A stretch of 64,000 bases of DNA from Nevskia sp. (lineage in GTDB: Bacteria; Pseudomonadota; Gammaproteobacteria; Nevskiales; Nevskiaceae). The notes under the pieces were generated by a model. The model was not told the origin of the DNA. It made no database searches and saw only the letters and a list, made by a program, of their open reading frames with translations. The translations under genes and the position numbers were made by a program. Positions 4,400-63,560 of this stretch are shown here, piece after piece. Position 1 is the stretch's first letter, and each line of letters starts with the position of its first letter. The DNA lies in assembly GCA_031291075.1 (NCBI GenBank), contig JARLJS010000022.1:19950-83949 (forward strand). Direction: 5' to 3'.

Positions 4400-5155
4400 T
4401 CAGGTCATCCGCGCGACCCAGCGCAGAGGCAGGTTGCGCATGGCGAAACCCATCGCCTTCCACGGCCAGGCCGGGACGCTGGCTTCCGGCACCTCCTGTT
4501 CGATCGCCGCCACCAGGGCGCGGCAGCCGGTGGCGGTATCAACGATGAAAGGGGTGTTCTTCACCTTCTCGTTGATCTCGCTGCGGATGAAGCCGGGGTA
4601 GAGGGTGGTGACCTTGATCCTGGTGCGCAGCAGGTCGGCGCGGATGCCCTCGGCCAGGGTGGCCACCGCGGCCTTGCTGGCGGCGTAGGTGGTCAGGTTG
4701 CGCGGCATCCCGCGCATGGCGCTCATCGACGAGATCACCACCAGGTGGCCGTGCTGCTGGGCGCGGAATATTTCCACCGCGGCCTCGCATTGCGCCAGCG
4801 CGGCGACGAAGTTGGTCTCCGCGGTTTGACGGTTGGCGTGGAAATAGCCGGTGCCGATGGGTTGGCCCTTGCCGATGCCGGCGTTGACGATGACCCGGTC
4901 GAGGCCGCCCATCTGCCCGGCGAACTCGCGGAATACCGTGAACACGCTGTCGTAGTCGTTGACGTCCAGCGGCTTGACCAGCACGCGGATGCCGGGGTGG
5001 GCGGCGAGCAGTTCCTGCCGGAGCGCCTCCAGCCGTTCGGTCCGCCGGGCGCACAAAGCGAGGTCACGCCCCTTGGCGGCGAACTCCCGCGCCATGCCCG
5101 CGCCGAGACCGGAGCTGGCGCCGGTGATGAGGATGTTCTTCCGAATCGGCTTCAT
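4400..5155 (-). CDS. SDR family NAD(P)-dependent oxidoreductase
   Basis: This 251-residue classical short-chain dehydrogenase has the cofactor motif TGASSGLG near residue 11, an NAG motif at about residue 90, and the catalytic Ser and Tyr-x3-Lys in ISSMSAM...TYAASKAA. The ATG giving MKPIRKNILITG is preferred because the upstream extension is translated from the GTGAGGA repeat. It resembles SDRs acting on fatty or steroid-like alcohols and ketones, and lies beside acyl-CoA metabolism genes, but the substrate is unknown. It is separated from the next upstream gene on the same strand by the intergenic repeat. Confidence 0.88.
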   Translation of the reverse strand: MKPIRKNILITGASSGLGAGMAREFAAKGRDLALCARRTERLEALRQELLAAHPGIRVLVKPLDVNDYDSVFTVFREFAGQMGGLDRVIVNAGIGKGQPIGTGYFHANRQTAETNFVAALAQCEAAVEIFRAQQHGHLVVISSMSAMRGMPRNLTTYAASKAAVATLAEGIRADLLRTRIKVTTLYPGFIRSEINEKVKNTPFIVDTATGCRALVAAIEQEVPEASVPAWPWKAMGFAMRNLPLRWVARMT

Positions 5156-5168
5156 GGTCTTGGATGAT

Positions 5169-5295
5169 GTGAGGGGTGAGGAGTGAGGAGTGAGGAGTGA
5201 GGAGACAAGCAAAAGCCCGGCTGAAACCACTCTGCGCCTTTTGCTTGTCCCCTCACAGCGCCCGTAAGGGCGCGACCTCACTCCTCACCCCTCAC
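5169..5295. repeat. GTGAGG-heptamer/hairpin intergenic repeat, copy A
   Basis: The left end has GTGAGGGGTGAGGAGTGAGG with further AGTGAGG units, followed by ACAAGCAAAAG. The right end has CTTTTGCTTGT, CCCCTCACAG, a GCGCCCGTAAGGGCGC hairpin and CCTCACTCCTCACCCCTCAC. The outer ends are inverted repeats of each other. The same modules recur at about 53.1 kb and 56.1 kb with different hairpin stems. The right end overlaps the TGA stop codon of the histidine phosphatase gene (5292-5294). Confidence 0.85.
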
Positions 5296-7225: not shown

Positions 7226-7266
7226 GGATCGCTCCTCCGCTGGAGCGACCATTCTGGACCTGGCCG

Positions 7267-7319
7267 TATAATTCATGAAGTGATACTTTTGCATCTAAGA
7301 TCATGAATATAATTCATGG
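7267..7319. promoter_or_regulatory. LysR-type operator candidate with three ATTCATG half-sites
   Basis: The divergent region has TATAATTCATGA at 7267-7278 and TATAATTCATGG at 7308-7319 as direct repeats, plus CATGAAT at 7302-7308 in inverted orientation. The last two make a dyad CATGAAT-ATA-ATTCATG at 7302-7318 that overlaps the LysR start codon (7316). Such spacing fits autorepression plus control of the divergent acyl-CoA dehydrogenase operon. Direct binding is inferred. Confidence 0.55.
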
Positions 7320-8236
7320 ATAAATCCGTCGACGTGCCGCGCCTGCTGCGCCTGGACCTGAACCTGTTCCGGGTGTTCGACGTGGTCTACCGCGAGCGAA
7401 ATCTCACCCGCGCCGCGGCGGTGCTGTCGCTGAGCCAGTCGGCGGTGAGCCACTCCCTGGCCAGGCTGCGCGAGGTGCTGCAGGACCCGCTGTTCGTGCG
7501 CCGCGGCCGCGGCGTGGCGCCGACGCCGCGGGCCGAGCAGCTCGCGCCGGCGGTGCAGCAGGCGCTGGCCGCCTTGCGGCAGGGCCTGCAGCGTGGCCGC
7601 GCCTTCGATCCCGCCCACGACCTGACCCGTCTGCGGCTGGCGATGCACGAGGAGCTGGAGCCCAACCTGCTGCCGGCGGTGTTCGAACGCCTGCGGGTGG
7701 CGGCGCCGGCCGCGGCCATCGCCAGCGTGCGGCTGGACCGCGCCAACCTCAAGGCCGACCTGGCCGCCGGCCGCGTCGACTTGGCCATCGACGTGGCCCA
7801 GGTCACCGAGCCCGAGCTGCGCCACGAGCCGCTGCTACAGGATTCGCTGTGCGTGGTGTCGGCGGCGGCGCGGCGCCGGCTGGATTTCGACTCGTACATG
7901 GCCGCGCAGCACATCGCCGTCTCCTCGCGCCGCACCGGCCCGGCGATGGAGGACTTCATGTTCGGCCGCCAGGGCCTGCAGCGGCAGATCGTGCTGCGCT
8001 GCCAGCATTACGAGAGCGCCTGCCGCATCGCCGCCGCCTCCGACCTGCTGCTCACCATTCCGCGCCGCAATGCCGAGTCGCTGCGCACGGCCGCGCTGCG
8101 GCTGTGGCGCATGCCCCTGGAACTGCCGCCGATCGAACTGCACCTGTACTGGCATCGCCAGGCGGAGCTGGAACCGGCCACGCTGTGGCTGCGCTCGGAA
8201 CTGCGGGCGCTGGCGGGAAAGAACAGCGGGCGGTGA
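7316..8236 (+). CDS. LysR family transcriptional regulator
   Basis: This 306-residue regulator has the LysR winged helix at residues 10-70 (LDLNLFRVFDVVYRERN, then AAAVLSLSQSAVSHSLARL) and a two-lobed effector-binding domain in the remainder. Its PLFVRRGRGVAPTPRA segment is typical of the NodD/LinR-like LysR subgroup. It is divergent from the acyl-CoA dehydrogenase gene and its start codon lies inside a dyad of ATTCATG half-sites, so it probably controls that operon and itself. The inducer is unknown; an acyl-CoA or aromatic intermediate would fit. Confidence 0.9.
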   Translation: MDKSVDVPRLLRLDLNLFRVFDVVYRERNLTRAAAVLSLSQSAVSHSLARLREVLQDPLFVRRGRGVAPTPRAEQLAPAVQQALAALRQGLQRGRAFDPAHDLTRLRLAMHEELEPNLLPAVFERLRVAAPAAAIASVRLDRANLKADLAAGRVDLAIDVAQVTEPELRHEPLLQDSLCVVSAAARRRLDFDSYMAAQHIAVSSRRTGPAMEDFMFGRQGLQRQIVLRCQHYESACRIAAASDLLLTIPRRNAESLRTAALRLWRMPLELPPIELHLYWHRQAELEPATLWLRSELRALAGKNSGR

Positions 8237-8243
8237 CCGGCTT

Positions 8244-10163
8244 CTACGCCGCCGCCCGCAACGGCACCACAGCCGGGGCCATGGCGGCTTCGGCCGCGTG
8301 GTCCTTCGCCCGCAGCACGCGGCCGAAGCGCTCGTGCGCGTAGGCGGGGGTATAGGCGCCCTCGTTCCAGGCCAGCTTGCCGGCGATCATCACCTGCGTC
8401 ACCACGCCCTGCGGACGGTTCACCAGCTGCTTGCATTCGAACAGGTCGCGGTGGATGTATTCGATGGTGGATTCCGGTTGCCAGTGCTGCAACGCCGCCG
8501 GGTCCACCACGCAGAGGTCGGCCTGGACACCCGGCGCCAGCAGGCCGGCGTTGATGCCGAAGAATTCGGCCGGGGCCTGGGTCATGCGGTGCACGGCGGT
8601 CGCCACCCGCTGCAGGCCGTCGGCCTGCGCGATCTGCAGCGTGCGCAGGTTGCCGTCGTAGAACGCCATGTTGGTGATGTGGGCGCCGGAATCGTTGAAG
8701 CCGGGCAGGGTCAGCGGGTGGAACAGCAGCTCCTTCACCACCGCCGGGTCGCGGTTGGCGGTGGTGGTGGTCCAGCGCAGCCCGGTGTCCCACCGCCGCA
8801 GCAGGTGCAGCACGAAGTCGGCCTCGTCGCCGATCGGGCTGGGGCAGGCGCGGAAGAAGGCTTCCTCCTGCTCGTCCCGGGCACCTTGTCCGTCCGCTTG
8901 CCAGCGCCGCAGGCGGTCGTAGGCGGCCTGCAGAGTCTGGCCCTGCCAGCTTGCCAGCGGGCAGCCGTCCACGACCATGTCGTCCAGGCGGCGGCTCAGC
9001 ACCATGTCCTCACGCCCGAGCAGGCGCTTGAGGTTGGCGAGGTTGAGGCCGCGCTTGCCCTTGAACCACATGGCGCGGAAGGCGCGTATGTACTGCGGAT
9101 CGTTGAGGATGCGCAGGCGCCCCTCGCGGTCCTCCAGGTCGCACTCGTTGAGCAGGCGCAGCTCCGGGATCTCCTCGGCGATCGGCGTGATCATGCCGTC
9201 GCTCCACAGCTTGAACGGCGCCGACAAGGCCTGGAAGCGGAACAGGCCGCCGACCGCCTTTGAATTGAGCAGGCGCAGCAGCGCGAGGCCGAGCCTGGCG
9301 AGCGAGCGGTTGGTATGCAGGTCGATCACCGCCACCGCGGTGGTGCGCAGCGTGCGGCCGTAGAGCCGGCCGCTGGTGAGGAGGAACGTGCGCAGGGTCT
9401 GCAGCGGGCTGTCCTTCGGCGGCGTCGCCTGCCAGACGCGATTCCAGCGCCGCACAATGCCGGTGAGGCGCTTCAGCTCGGCGAAGGAGGCGAACTGGGT
9501 GGGGATCTGCTTGCGCGTGTTGGGCTGGTTGGCGAGGTAGTGGAAGGGCAGGGCGTCAGTGGAAAAGCCGGCGTAGCCCTGCTCCATGCCCTGTTCCAGC
9601 AGCGCGGCCATGCGGTCGAGCTCGGCTGGGCCGGGGTCGCGCGCCACCGACTGCTGCAGGCCCATCGCCTCGATGCGCAGCATCGAGTGCGGGATCAGCG
9701 GCACCACGTTGGGGCCGAGGTGCAGTTTCTGGAAGTGATCGAGGTAGGCGCCGGAATCGTTCCAGTGGACGACGTCGCCGACCTTGCGCAGCACGTGCTT
9801 GGGCACGTTCTCCACCCGCGCGAAGCAGTCGACGATGGGGTCGTCGCCGCCGCGGCGCTGGTTGCCGTAGGCCAGGCCCAGCGAGCAGTTGCTCATCACC
9901 ACCGTGGTGGTGCCGTGCCGCACCACTTCGGGCAGCTCGGGTGCCAGTTCCACTTCCAGGTCGAGATGGGTGTGGATGTCGAGCAGTCCGGGCATCAGCC
10001 AGCGGCCGCTGCAGTCGATGGTCTGTGCCCCGGCGGGCACCGGCAGATCTCTGCCCATCGCGGCGACGCGGCCGTCGCGCACCGTTACGTCCATGACCTG
10101 TGGCGGCCGGTCGCGGCCGTCGAACACGGTCGCGTTGCGGAACAGGGTGGCGGATGCGGTCAT
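8244..10163 (-). CDS. Amidohydrolase family protein, N-acyl-D-amino-acid deacylase-like
   Basis: The 639-residue protein has the amidohydrolase metal motif GLLDIHTHLDLE near residue 60, a conserved HGTTTVVMSNCS block, and a C-terminal NDSGAH segment carrying the catalytic Asp. The C-terminal beta-sandwich GLLAPGVQADLCVVDP is typical of D-aminoacylase and dihydropyrimidinase relatives. It is longer than ordinary D-aminoacylases (about 480-500 residues) and belongs to the long group often annotated amidohydrolase family. It would hydrolyse an amide or ring C-N bond, but the substrate cannot be inferred. It lies 100 bp downstream of the MerR gene on the same strand. Confidence 0.85.
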   Translation of the reverse strand: MTASATLFRNATVFDGRDRPPQVMDVTVRDGRVAAMGRDLPVPAGAQTIDCSGRWLMPGLLDIHTHLDLEVELAPELPEVVRHGTTTVVMSNCSLGLAYGNQRRGGDDPIVDCFARVENVPKHVLRKVGDVVHWNDSGAYLDHFQKLHLGPNVVPLIPHSMLRIEAMGLQQSVARDPGPAELDRMAALLEQGMEQGYAGFSTDALPFHYLANQPNTRKQIPTQFASFAELKRLTGIVRRWNRVWQATPPKDSPLQTLRTFLLTSGRLYGRTLRTTAVAVIDLHTNRSLARLGLALLRLLNSKAVGGLFRFQALSAPFKLWSDGMITPIAEEIPELRLLNECDLEDREGRLRILNDPQYIRAFRAMWFKGKRGLNLANLKRLLGREDMVLSRRLDDMVVDGCPLASWQGQTLQAAYDRLRRWQADGQGARDEQEEAFFRACPSPIGDEADFVLHLLRRWDTGLRWTTTTANRDPAVVKELLFHPLTLPGFNDSGAHITNMAFYDGNLRTLQIAQADGLQRVATAVHRMTQAPAEFFGINAGLLAPGVQADLCVVDPAALQHWQPESTIEYIHRDLFECKQLVNRPQGVVTQVMIAGKLAWNEGAYTPAYAHERFGRVLRAKDHAAEAAMAPAVVPLRAAA

Positions 10164-38968: not shown

Positions 38969-39580
<612 letters not shown>

Positions 39581-39747
39581 GCGGATTCTCCTGAGAGCTG
39601 ATGGAGCGCCGTTGATACCCGCTCCGCGGATATCGGCGCTTATAAAACTCATGATGCATTGGCCGCCACCGCGCGGCATTGACCTGGGTCAAGAACCCGT
39701 TAAGTAGGGTTAAGCACCCGGGTTCCGGGCGGAACAGGGAAACGAGC

Positions 39748-39778
39748 AAAAAAAAGCCGCGGCAGTGGCCGCGGCTTT
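39748..39778 (-). terminator. Rho-independent terminator after the cold-shock gene
   Basis: On the minus strand, GCCGCGGC / GCCGCGGC pair around a short loop, followed by a run of eight T residues. It lies 20 bp after the csp stop codon. Confidence 0.9.
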
Positions 39779-39796: not shown

Positions 39797-40009
39797 TTAC
39801 AGGGGGCGGATCTTCGTCGCCTGCATGCCCTTGGGGCCGCGCGCGGCGATGTACTCGACGCGCTGGCCTTCAGCCAGGGTCTTGAACCCGTCGCCCTGGA
39901 TTTCCTTGAAGTGCGCAAAAAGGTCTTCGCCGCCGTCGGCCGGCGTAATGAAGCCGAACCCCTTGGCGTCGTTGAACCATTTCACGGAACCGGTTGAGAC
40001 ATTACTCAT
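39797..40009 (-). CDS. Cold-shock domain protein (CspA family)
   Basis: The 70-residue protein is a single cold-shock domain with [14 protein letters not shown] (RNP1) and DLFAHF (RNP2), followed by EGQRVEY and KGMQATKI. It binds single-stranded RNA or DNA and acts as an RNA chaperone. The start at MSNVSTGS gives the standard length; the upstream codons of the longer ORF are the untranslated leader. About 150 bp of AT-richer upstream sequence (40010-40160) fits the long 5' leader typical of csp mRNAs. Confidence 0.93.
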
Positions 40010-40199: not shown

Positions 40200-40535
40200 C
40201 TATCTGCTTGCGCGGGAATCGGTCCGGAAAAATGCGGCGTCCACGCAATCCGGCCGATTGCGGATGCGCAGCCAGTACTCCTGCCGCGCGTCATCATCGA
40301 TATCCACGAAGCCGCCATAGAGCTTGTCGCGACCGTTGCCTTTGGGCTGTGTCACCAGGTACGGCTCGCCGGAGCCGGCATCGAAACAGTTGTACGGGCC
40401 GCAGGTGGACATCTGCAGGACCTTGCCGCCGTAGTGATAGACACGGCAGGACTTCGGGCGCTCCACCCAGCCGATGCGTCCACGGCCACCGATGGCCTGC
40501 GACTTGGCCTCGATGTACATCAGCTGCTTGTTCAT
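40200..40535 (-). CDS. Small conserved protein with C-terminal DDARQEYW motif
   Basis: This 111-residue protein starts MNKQLMYIEAKSQ and contains RIGWVERPKSCRVYHYGGKVLQ, NCFDAGSGEPYLVTQP and GFVDIDDDARQEYWLRIRN. I have seen similar short proteins in proteobacterial genomes with uninformative or misleading names; I assign no activity. Repeated aromatic and basic residues suggest a small beta-rich domain. The gene follows the 13-residue repeat gene by 11 bp, so the two appear to be one operon. Confidence 0.7.
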   Translation of the reverse strand: MNKQLMYIEAKSQAIGGRGRIGWVERPKSCRVYHYGGKVLQMSTCGPYNCFDAGSGEPYLVTQPKGNGRDKLYGGFVDIDDDARQEYWLRIRNRPDCVDAAFFRTDSRASR

Positions 40536-40546
40536 CCCTAGGTTCC

Positions 40547-41038
40547 CTAGCAGTCGACACCTTCCCGGTTGCGCATTTCGTCCTGCTGGCGCGTCGGTGA
40601 GACCTCGTAGTCCCCGTTGTTCGCGCGTTGCGCTTCTTCCAGGTGATATTTGCCGTCGACGCCGAGGAATGAACCGGCGTAGTGATAACAACCGTCCTCG
40701 CCGCGAAAGCAGCCGCGAGGATGGTATTTGCCATCCAAGCCCAGGAAGGCGCCCGGCGGATGATAACGGCCGTCTTCGCCCAGGAAGGAATGGGCCGGAT
40801 GATAATCGCCATCGACGCCCAGGAAATGCCCCCGCGGGCGATATACGCCATCGCCGAACAACACGTGTCCCTTGGGATGGTATTTTCCGTCGCTCCCCAG
40901 GAATGACCCGGCCGGGTAATACTCGGAATCGACACCACGGAAGGAACCCTTCGGGTGATAACGTCCGTCCTCGCCGAGGATCGAGCCGGCAGGGTAGTAG
41001 TTGCCATCGATGCCGCGCATGCGGCGGGCGCTATACAT
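40547..41038 (-). CDS. 13-residue tandem-repeat protein (consensus GxDGxYHPxGSFL)
   Basis: The 163-residue protein has no signal peptide. Residues 9 to about 138 consist of ten consecutive 13-residue units of the form GxDGxYHPxGSFL, such as GEDGRYHPKGSFR and GLDGKYHPRGCFR. The tail (VSPTRQQDEMRNREGVDC) is hydrophilic and ends in Cys. Such short, Gly/Asp/Tyr-rich units resemble solenoid or turn repeats of the MORN type in size only, since the MORN consensus is different. Function is unknown. It is co-transcribed with the small protein at 40200. Confidence 0.8.
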   Translation of the reverse strand: MYSARRMRGIDGNYYPAGSILGEDGRYHPKGSFRGVDSEYYPAGSFLGSDGKYHPKGHVLFGDGVYRPRGHFLGVDGDYHPAHSFLGEDGRYHPPGAFLGLDGKYHPRGCFRGEDGCYHYAGSFLGVDGKYHLEEAQRANNGDYEVSPTRQQDEMRNREGVDC

Positions 41039-41296: not shown

Positions 41297-41557
41297 ATGG
41301 CGCGCAACACGGTCGAAGATTGTCTTGTCCACATTTCGAGCCGATTCGATCTGACGCTGATCGCCGCCAAGCGCGCTAGACAGCTGGCCAGGGGCGCGGA
41401 CGCCAAGGTGCCGCGACAAGATCACAAGTCCACGGTGCTGGCACTGCAGGAGATCGCCAACGGCGAAATCACCGCATCGGTCCTGGCCGAATCCGATTTG
41501 CCCGTGATTCCGATGCGTGGCATCGACGAGGAGCTATTACTGCTCGGTCACCTCTGA
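41297..41557 (+). CDS. RNA polymerase omega subunit-like protein (RpoZ paralogue)
   Basis: The 86-residue protein starts MARNTVEDCLVHISSRFDLTLIAAKRARQLARG, which matches the conserved omega N terminus (VEDCL, RF-L---A--RARQL), followed by KSTVLALQEIANGEI, the second omega block. Omega binds beta-prime and helps assemble RNA polymerase and respond to ppGpp. The C terminus diverges (LPVIPMRGIDEELLLLGHL) and the gene is not in a gmk-rpoZ-spoT operon, so this is probably a second copy. The start was set at the VEDCL-matching ATG; the longer ORF start is not conserved. Confidence 0.78.
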   Translation: MARNTVEDCLVHISSRFDLTLIAAKRARQLARGADAKVPRQDHKSTVLALQEIANGEITASVLAESDLPVIPMRGIDEELLLLGHL

Positions 41558-41903: not shown

Positions 41904-42164
41904 ATGCGCGAGCTGACCCAGATGGATCGTCTCTGGCTGGTGGCTCAGGCCCACCGCGGCGGAAATCTCGTCATCTCGGCCTCATCCAGAGAGCGCCTGC
42001 GAAAAATGGATCTCATCACCACCCGCCACAACCGCTCGGCCGGGCTGACGCGCCTTGGCTATGAGTTGGCGCTCCGATTGAAACAGCAGATGAGATCTTC
42101 TGCCCACGCCGGCGCGGTCCTGGCCACCAGCTTGCCCAAAGGCAATATAGGAATCAGTCCATGA
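41904..42164 (+). CDS. Small hypothetical protein, winged-helix-like
   Basis: The 86-residue protein starts MRELTQMDRLWLVAQAHRGGN. The stretch SSRERLRKMDLITTRHNRSAGLTRLGYELALRLKQ has the LTxxG pattern of short winged-helix segments, so DNA binding is possible but not shown. A GGAGGA site lies six bases upstream. Its TGA overlaps the next gene's ATG (ATGA), so the two genes are translationally coupled. Confidence 0.55.
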   Translation: MRELTQMDRLWLVAQAHRGGNLVISASSRERLRKMDLITTRHNRSAGLTRLGYELALRLKQQMRSSAHAGAVLATSLPKGNIGISP

Positions 42165-42496
42165 GCGAATACACAGATACGGGAGCCGCCGAGTTGGCGG
42201 GCAGTCCGGTGCCGACCGCTGCTCGGCCCACGCTATCGAAGCGGCAGATCAAGGCGCTGGCATTTGCCAACGAGCGCCTGACCAGGCAAAGGTGGAAACA
42301 CATGCTGCCCGATGCAAGGGCCTTGTGGACCAAAGTACCTGCCGAGGACCTGACGAAAGTCAACGGCAACATCCATGCGCTGGCCGGTCTGGTCCAGCTG
42401 CGTTATCACACCAGTCGGGAGGATGCGGATCGGCAGGTGCAACAGTTCTTTCTGGAGCACCCGCCGACGGCAACGGCAGAAGCCACCAGGCCCTGA
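42161..42496 (+). CDS. CsbD-like stress protein
   Basis: The 111-residue protein has a disordered N terminus and a C-terminal segment ARALWTKVPAEDLTKVNGNIHALAGLVQLRYHTSREDADRQVQQF that follows the CsbD pattern (W..L..DL..I.G....L.G..Q..Y....E.A...V..F). CsbD-type proteins are small, general-stress-induced proteins of unknown mechanism. It is coupled to the preceding small gene. The extra N-terminal 45 residues are not usual for CsbD. Confidence 0.6.
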   Translation: MSEYTDTGAAELAGSPVPTAARPTLSKRQIKALAFANERLTRQRWKHMLPDARALWTKVPAEDLTKVNGNIHALAGLVQLRYHTSREDADRQVQQFFLEHPPTATAEATRP

Positions 42497-63534: not shown

Positions 63535-63560
63535 CCCCCCCCCCCCCCCCCCCCCCCCCC
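63535..63560. repeat. 26-nt poly-C homopolymer
   Basis: Twenty-six consecutive C residues directly follow AAGAGCA. A matching G7 tract lies 15 bp before, so GGGGGGGTGC and GCACCCCCCC could fold back. A homopolymer of this length is rare and could be a sequencing or assembly artefact. Confidence 0.9.

Follow-up and report, generated by a model that had tools for sequence, protein, structure and literature searches.

Most relatives of the 13-residue repeat protein outside the Nevskiaceae fell into one cross-phylum clade, several of them being integron gene cassettes. The gene of the repeat protein (163 amino acids, start codon ATG, stop codon TAG) is located at positions 40547..41038 on the minus strand of the analyzed 64,000-nucleotide stretch of Nevskia sp. 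DNA, called the window throughout. It was defined by its ORF and translation and by relatives that share its start region and C-terminus. Judged from sequence comparison, the family is apparently undescribed and unnamed in the libraries searched. Jointly, the observations are best explained by a cytosolic beta-solenoid binding rod of an integron-mobile family, which would serve as accessory stress or defence cargo. We consider the chances of this joint explanation to be evenly balanced.

Distribution and probable integron carriage of the repeat gene

A total of 11 out of 58 Nevskiaceae genomes, including the window genome, were found to carry one full-length copy of the repeat gene, and the other copies encoded proteins 57-72% identical to the window protein. 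Of 399 genomes sampled evenly across the phylum, only the window's own gave a match. A genome scan with the single window protein as query yielded no locus; a profile-guided scan, run over the named genome collection with the alignment as query, yielded 25 loci. These comprised the Nevskiaceae genera Solimonas, Nevskia, Panacagrimonas, and Stagnimonas. Outside this family the relatives were thinly spread, with mostly single finds. These came from Xanthomonas arboricola, Methylobacter, Limnobacter, Rhodocyclales, a gammaproteobacterial MAG, Lutimaribacter, Sulfitobacter, a Rhodobacteraceae MAG, Desulfobulbaceae, Chlorobium ferrooxidans, Chryseobacterium, and one acidobacterial MAG. In the tree, one 10-row clade of non-Nevskiaceae sequences (support 100/99) united Methylobacter, Chlorobium, Xanthomonas, Roseobacteraceae, Desulfobulbaceae, Bacteroidota, and Acidobacteriota. 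The Methylobacter and Chlorobium copies were sisters in this tree, with 90% identity of the proteins and 81% identity of the DNA.

The attC sites were detected by box matching combined with folding. We are aware that the automatic scan also gives occasional matches in shuffled sequence, and the case for attC is therefore based on the position of the sites at stop codons, not on raw counts. Imperfect palindromes of the attC type (RYYYAAC-/GTTRRRY-like ends) were found directly 3' of the stop codon of the repeat gene at L021, L023, L028, and L031, with a variant at L027. At all five the repeat gene is a single ORF with attC straight after its stop, as in a gene cassette. Upstream of the repeat gene attC-type sites were also present at L023 and L028. 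At L028 such sites followed not only the repeat gene but also the ORFs 7251-7802 and 7942-9477, three in all, an arrangement that matches a cassette array. Folding of the attC bottom strand was better than that of shuffled controls in 6 of 8 cases (z -2.0 to -5.3) and not better in the other 2. Beside the repeat genes of L025, L026, L029, L030, and L036 no attC was seen; the cassette habit is thus established in only a part of the clade. The Nevskiaceae copies were free of attC, and none was found near the repeat gene in the window. Of 19 host genomes searched, 8 contained a match above the cut-off to the integron integrase IntI (TIGR02249), compared to none of the 14 controls. The positive hosts included Xanthomonas, Desulfobulbaceae, Rhodocyclales, and the L028 genome, with fragments only in Methylobacter and Chlorobium. 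For Xanthomonas arboricola scattered attC clusters are known (PMC12444791). The adjacent attC sites at five loci outside the Nevskiaceae account for the scattered distribution of the repeat gene, and we hold integron carriage at the named loci to be very probable.

Other routes of spread were considered and rejected. The repeat protein had no match in phage records and in two viral-contig scans, and a phage origin was dismissed, neither the repeat protein nor the 111-amino-acid partner discussed below being matched in phage data. Spread by plasmids was discarded as well: plasmid matches were weak, the Euzebya match lay on the strand opposite to the annotated gene, and the match on a Chryseobacterium balustinum plasmid was a different 13-residue repeat. 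The latter (L047, NZ_CP033935.1, positions 4986-5279) consists of the distinct repeat ERKADGNYYPKDW in a frame differing from that of the annotated hypothetical protein, and it may belong to a repeat class akin to the present one, or the gene may be mis-annotated. A BLAST search with the near-perfect repeat of L022 as query came back empty, which is probably uninformative through the low-complexity filter.

Unit array, conservation, and predicted fold

The preliminary description of the window had claimed ten GxDGxYHPxGSFL units in a row at residues 9-138, and this was borne out by the unit table and by autocorrelation. The register begins at residue 9, and the ten well-conserved units (40625..41014, minus strand) read GIDGNYYPAGSIL, GEDGRYHPKGSFR, GVDSEYYPAGSFL, GSDGKYHPKGHVL, and FGDGVYRPRGHFL for units 1-5, and GVDGDYHPAHSFL, GEDGRYHPPGAFL, GLDGKYHPRGCFR, GEDGCYHYAGSFL, and GVDGKYHLEEAQR for units 6-10. 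They are followed by a degenerate eleventh unit, ANNGDYEVSPTRQ, at residues 139-151 (40586..40624, minus strand), identified in alignments A2 and A6 as the counterpart of the final unit GVHGRYEEPEGLA in relatives with 12 units, and by a short C-terminal tail ending in GVDC. The whole array is free of insertions and gaps. At lag 13, amino-acid identity within the window protein was 0.43, compared to a mean of 0.075 (sd 0.021, maximum 0.15) in 5000 shuffles. The regular 39-bp DNA period claimed before was visible (0.53 versus about 0.25) but weak, and Tandem Repeats Finder did not report the array. Identity between units was 0.60, 0.62, and 0.38 at codon positions 1, 2, and 3, the 39-bp signal thus coming from positions 1 and 2. 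As the third positions have diverged and the first two have stayed similar, the repeat is old and maintained by selection at the protein level. A recent expansion was ruled out by the diverged third positions together with the orthology of the units across phyla. Elsewhere in the window, the hexamer CCATAC occurs five times at 39043-39073 within the minus-strand ORF 38969-39679 and encodes a GMGMGMGMGM stretch. A run of 26 consecutive C at 63535-63560, with a G run slightly upstream, is possibly an assembly artefact or a phase-variable tract.

The relatives aligned unit by unit with the window protein, and their length was nearly fixed. Counting the degenerate last unit, the Nevskiaceae proteins have 11 units and most others 12; L029 has 11, and L033-L036 have fewer. 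Copy number, whose variation in relatives had been proposed as a check, is nearly fixed and not freely variable. Over 217 units, conservation reached 94% for G1, 96% for D3, 95% for G4, 97% for Y6, 80% for H7, 77% for G10, and 76% for F12, with positions 2, 5, 9, and 11 free. Conserved turns and core combined with these free positions fit a stacked coil. Individual units kept features of their own across phyla, namely GC(F) in unit 8, YHY or YHF in unit 9, and YHL in unit 10. In 12-unit forms the last unit carries GRYEEPE, and the terminus GV[DN]C is common across phyla. Two cysteines stand out. Cys110 in the GCF of unit 8 (40709..40711, minus strand) was present in 18 of the 20 rows of A2 and absent in L018 and L028; Cys163 at the end of the GV[DN]C motif (40550..40552, minus strand) was present in 19 of the 20 rows and lost in L030, L033, and L034. 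Each can be missing without the other, and a disulfide between Cys110 and the terminal Cys as a rule of the family was rejected. The exported-looking L033 and L034 have neither, their C-termini reading GVDN. The earlier proposal that Cys residues help to carry ligands is weakened by the dispensability of each cysteine and the loss of both in these two relatives. As previously described, the window protein is devoid of a signal peptide, and so are most relatives, which are presumably cytosolic for this reason. The Rhodocyclales relatives L033-L035 have N-termini that, judged by eye, resemble signal peptides; cellular location thus seems not to be uniform across the family. The composition is Gly-rich. 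A net charge near neutral (-4 to +6) speaks against DNA mimicry, and this candidate was dropped.

For the window protein AlphaFold2 (20 sequences) returned a model with a mean pLDDT of 94.2 and a pTM of 0.72, containing two 2-residue strands per 13-residue unit and a predicted C-terminal helix at residues 148-159 (40562..40597, minus strand) capping the repeat. The L022 relative (12 sequences; pLDDT 91.9, pTM 0.65) gave the same pattern, with a helix placed likewise. The structure prediction called for in the preliminary description yielded a confident repeated two-strand structure, and the dedicated structure it had suggested is supported by this prediction together with the regular unit and the conservation across species. 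AlphaFold2 is, however, documented to produce confident beta-solenoids even from random perfect repeats (PMC11795689). In families with clearly diverged repeats its solenoid models agreed with other methods, the artefacts being those of perfect repeats (PMC11795689). This concern is partly eased by the divergence of the units analyzed here. An intrinsically disordered or low-complexity repeat, whose models would be such an artefact, could draw on this documented bias and on the Gly-rich composition. Unit-by-unit conservation across phyla with register and unit-specific residues kept, near-invariant aromatic positions, and a near-constant length are all atypical of disorder and make this very unlikely. 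We rate it as probable that the predicted two-strand repeat fold is correct. Among solved structures no global match to the model was found (TM 0.2 or less), and the coil topology is consequently a predicted one.

Searches of the window protein against Pfam, NCBIfam, PHROGs, PADLOC, and PDB sequences gave nothing above curated cut-offs, in agreement with the earlier statement that it belongs to no recognized family. Pentapeptide repeats, RTX, and other profiled repeat families were without a match at E up to 10 (Pfam, NCBIfam, PHROGs), and so were the choline- and cell-wall-binding repeats (CW_binding) in Pfam at the same threshold. The BA14K-like profile (PF07886) scored 13.6 bits for the window protein against a cut-off of 26. 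The distant Chryseobacterium relative L029 reached 29.3 bits as a whole protein, a sum over 12-residue partial matches of which no single stretch was significant alone. With relatives as queries, partial BA14K matches covering 12-14 of 30 positions appeared in most of those tested, and shorter ones were obtained for DUF5633, all below cut-off apart from the summed score of L029. Common to BA14K and the repeat is a core of roughly G-[ST]-[FY]-L-G-x-D-G. We take this likeness for a turn motif of a similar kind and do not count the repeat protein as a BA14K member.

Foldseek comparisons with the PDB listed on top the choline-binding modules of LytC, LytA, and LytB and glucansucrases, all as local matches (best E 1.8e-3 with TM 0.14; TM range 0.12-0.17). 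The repeat could accordingly be a carbohydrate-binding module at the surface or in the periplasm, working in the manner of the BA14K motif or of repeats that bind choline or glucan. The partial BA14K matches and the signal-peptide-like starts of L033-L035 also speak for this. We consider this unlikely, given that the window protein and most relatives are devoid of a signal peptide, the fold matches are local with E above 1e-3 and TM below 0.2, the CW_binding profiles were silent, and no BA14K match was significant on its own. In the viral library BFVD, adenovirus fibre shafts were matched at E 7e-5 (TM 0.16), the sole fold-library matches below 1e-3, with reovirus sigma1 and injection-system tail fibres among the weaker ones. 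These matches, and a predicted unit order of strand, G/P turn, strand, and exposed loop like that of the shafts, would speak for a homotrimeric triple beta-spiral fibre, in which a strand-turn-strand-loop unit would be shared by three chains, instead of a monomeric solenoid. Low TM-scores (0.2 or less), a unit of 13 residues compared to about 15 in adenovirus-type shafts, the lack of a trimerization head, and the lack of an export signal in most relatives render it improbable; the prediction of a monomer is blind to trimers.

Gene neighbourhoods

Within the Nevskiaceae two genes recur beside the repeat gene. A CspA-type cold-shock protein gene, recognized from its translation (39797..40009, minus strand, in the window), lies within about 1.5 kb of it in the window, L013, L014, L015, L017, and L018, in differing orders and orientations. 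A terminator-like stem-loop with a T run after cspA (39753..39778, minus strand) is a weak call, with 1 found compared to 1.3 expected by chance. A second gene for the RNA polymerase omega subunit, an rpoZ paralogue (41297..41557, plus strand; Pfam RNA_pol_Rpb6, 4.7e-16), was found near the repeat gene in the window, L013, L014, L017, and L018. About a third of the Nevskiaceae genomes searched have a second rpoZ; two copies were present in 8 of the 11 carriers of the repeat gene and in 12 of the 47 other genomes (Fisher p = 0.005, uncorrected for kinship), and the link to rpoZ2 and cspA may reflect shared ancestry within one family. In at least one genome (L088) rpoZ and cspA lie side by side and the 1.5 kb around them showed no repeat gene. 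The neighbourhood thus looks like an accessory island in which the repeat gene is optional. A conserved 111-amino-acid ORF at 42161-42496 of the window has relatives in Solimonas and Panacagrimonas loci near rpoZ2 and cspA and no Pfam match; it carries a motif that we take to be reminiscent of CsbD.

Directly downstream of the repeat gene, 11 bp after its stop, starts another ORF of 111 amino acids (40200..40535, minus strand), which had been put forward as a small, conserved, and co-transcribed partner. It may well be co-transcribed with the repeat gene in the window, but the conserved pairing did not hold. The ORF had no match in Pfam, NCBIfam, and PHROGs, and relatives were found in 4 of 100 related genomes searched, its own genome included. 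Besides the window, only Solimonas fluminis has such a relative (62% identical) next to the repeat gene. With adjacency in two species only, a constant operon mate was rejected, and a conserved functional pair is not supported.

Outside the Nevskiaceae, several neighbours resemble defence genes. Directly downstream of the Desulfobulbaceae relative are two TIR-type genes, one of them fused to an 8xMP membrane domain (L022, 697-1980). At L028 the ORF at 7942-9477 (511 amino acids) has a SIR2-like match and an attC-type site behind it and is apparently another cassette of the array. Beside the acidobacterial relative, E1-like, JAB, and Metal_CEHH genes (L030, 2743-5119) resemble a Bil-type ubiquitin-like defence system (BilC/BilD-like). 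One could conclude from these neighbours, and from the carriage as a cassette in several hosts, that the repeat gene itself is a cassette gene of anti-phage defence or of a toxin-antitoxin-like kind, its rod serving as sensor or adaptor. PADLOC, however, gave no match for the repeat protein, an enzymatic domain is absent, and the defence-like neighbours are few and mutually unrelated, as a mobile gene pool would give. Integrons gather defence genes anyway, and none were noticed beside the repeat gene at the Nevskiaceae loci. We regard this explanation as having a poor chance.

Proposed function and comparison with known systems

In the preferred explanation, the cytosolic binding rod, each 13-residue unit would form one short coil of a narrow two-strand solenoid, running from a strand at Y-H over a turn at P-x-G and a strand at F-L to a turn at G-x-D-G. 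The aromatic Y and F would fill the core, a His ladder would lie outside, and a stack of 11 or 12 coils would make up a rigid rod whose length hardly varies, ending in the helical cap and the C-terminal GV[DN]C. The repeated Asp, Tyr, and His positions could form ladders along one face of the rod and bind a repetitive or extended ligand, such as a row of metals, a polymer, or the surface of a protein or nucleic acid. Given the nearly fixed length, the rod is best explained as a surface to which an extended or repetitive partner binds; near-constant length together with unit-specific residues suggests a specific partner of defined size. The family would travel among bacteria as an integron gene cassette, and in the Nevskiaceae the repeat gene would now be a resident accessory gene, often near the cold-shock gene and the second rpoZ. 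Integron carriage and the neighbours point to a conditional benefit, under cold or other stress in the Nevskiaceae and possibly in defence elsewhere, and the rod would act under stress or phage attack. We infer both the function as a binding rod and the role in stress or defence, and any specific function assigned to the repeat protein would be doubtful at best. Rather doubtful, too, is the full picture of an unnamed integron-mobile family with one of the smallest two-strand coils, stacked 11-12 times into a cytosolic, ruler-like rod for stress or phage defence.

Integron cassettes constitute a large cross-phylum stock of genes without known function. The repeat protein is unusually testable among them, being small, repetitive, and probably stable, with a strict unit and a nearly fixed length, and the expected partner of defined size makes a pull-down worthwhile. 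With it the solenoid catalogue would gain a new repeat class (13 residues, aromatic/His ladder), and protein design might use it as a scaffold.

Small repeat solenoids and integron cargo of unknown function are already known as kinds; the 13-residue family itself is, by sequence, not in the libraries searched. A literature search for the string DGKYHP gave no result, which is weak evidence, subscription papers being outside its reach. In Brucella and its relatives the BA14K motif occurs once per protein, in proteins that are exported. The repeat protein shares with it a short G-[ST]-[FY]-L-G-x-D-G-type stretch, matched in part by most relatives tested; it differs by its tandem array (11 units in the window protein) and by the mostly missing export signal. 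With the choline- and glucan-binding repeats of LytA, LytB, LytC, and glucansucrases it has aromatic residues, DG turns, and short beta units in common, but its unit comprises 13 and not about 20 residues, TM-scores stay below 0.2, and no sequence profile matches. The triple beta-spiral of the adenovirus fibre shaft may resemble it in the strand-turn-strand-loop repeat and gave the lowest E-values in the viral library; unit length is different, a head domain is absent, and the TM-scores of 0.2 or less refer to a monomer model only. The pentapeptide-repeat proteins of the Qnr type are small cytosolic repeat rods which can travel in integrons. They offer a parallel from general knowledge as small repeat rods and possible integron cargo, from which the repeat protein is set apart by a 13-residue DGxYHP unit instead of a 5-residue one, by the silence of the pentapeptide profiles, and by its near-neutral charge.
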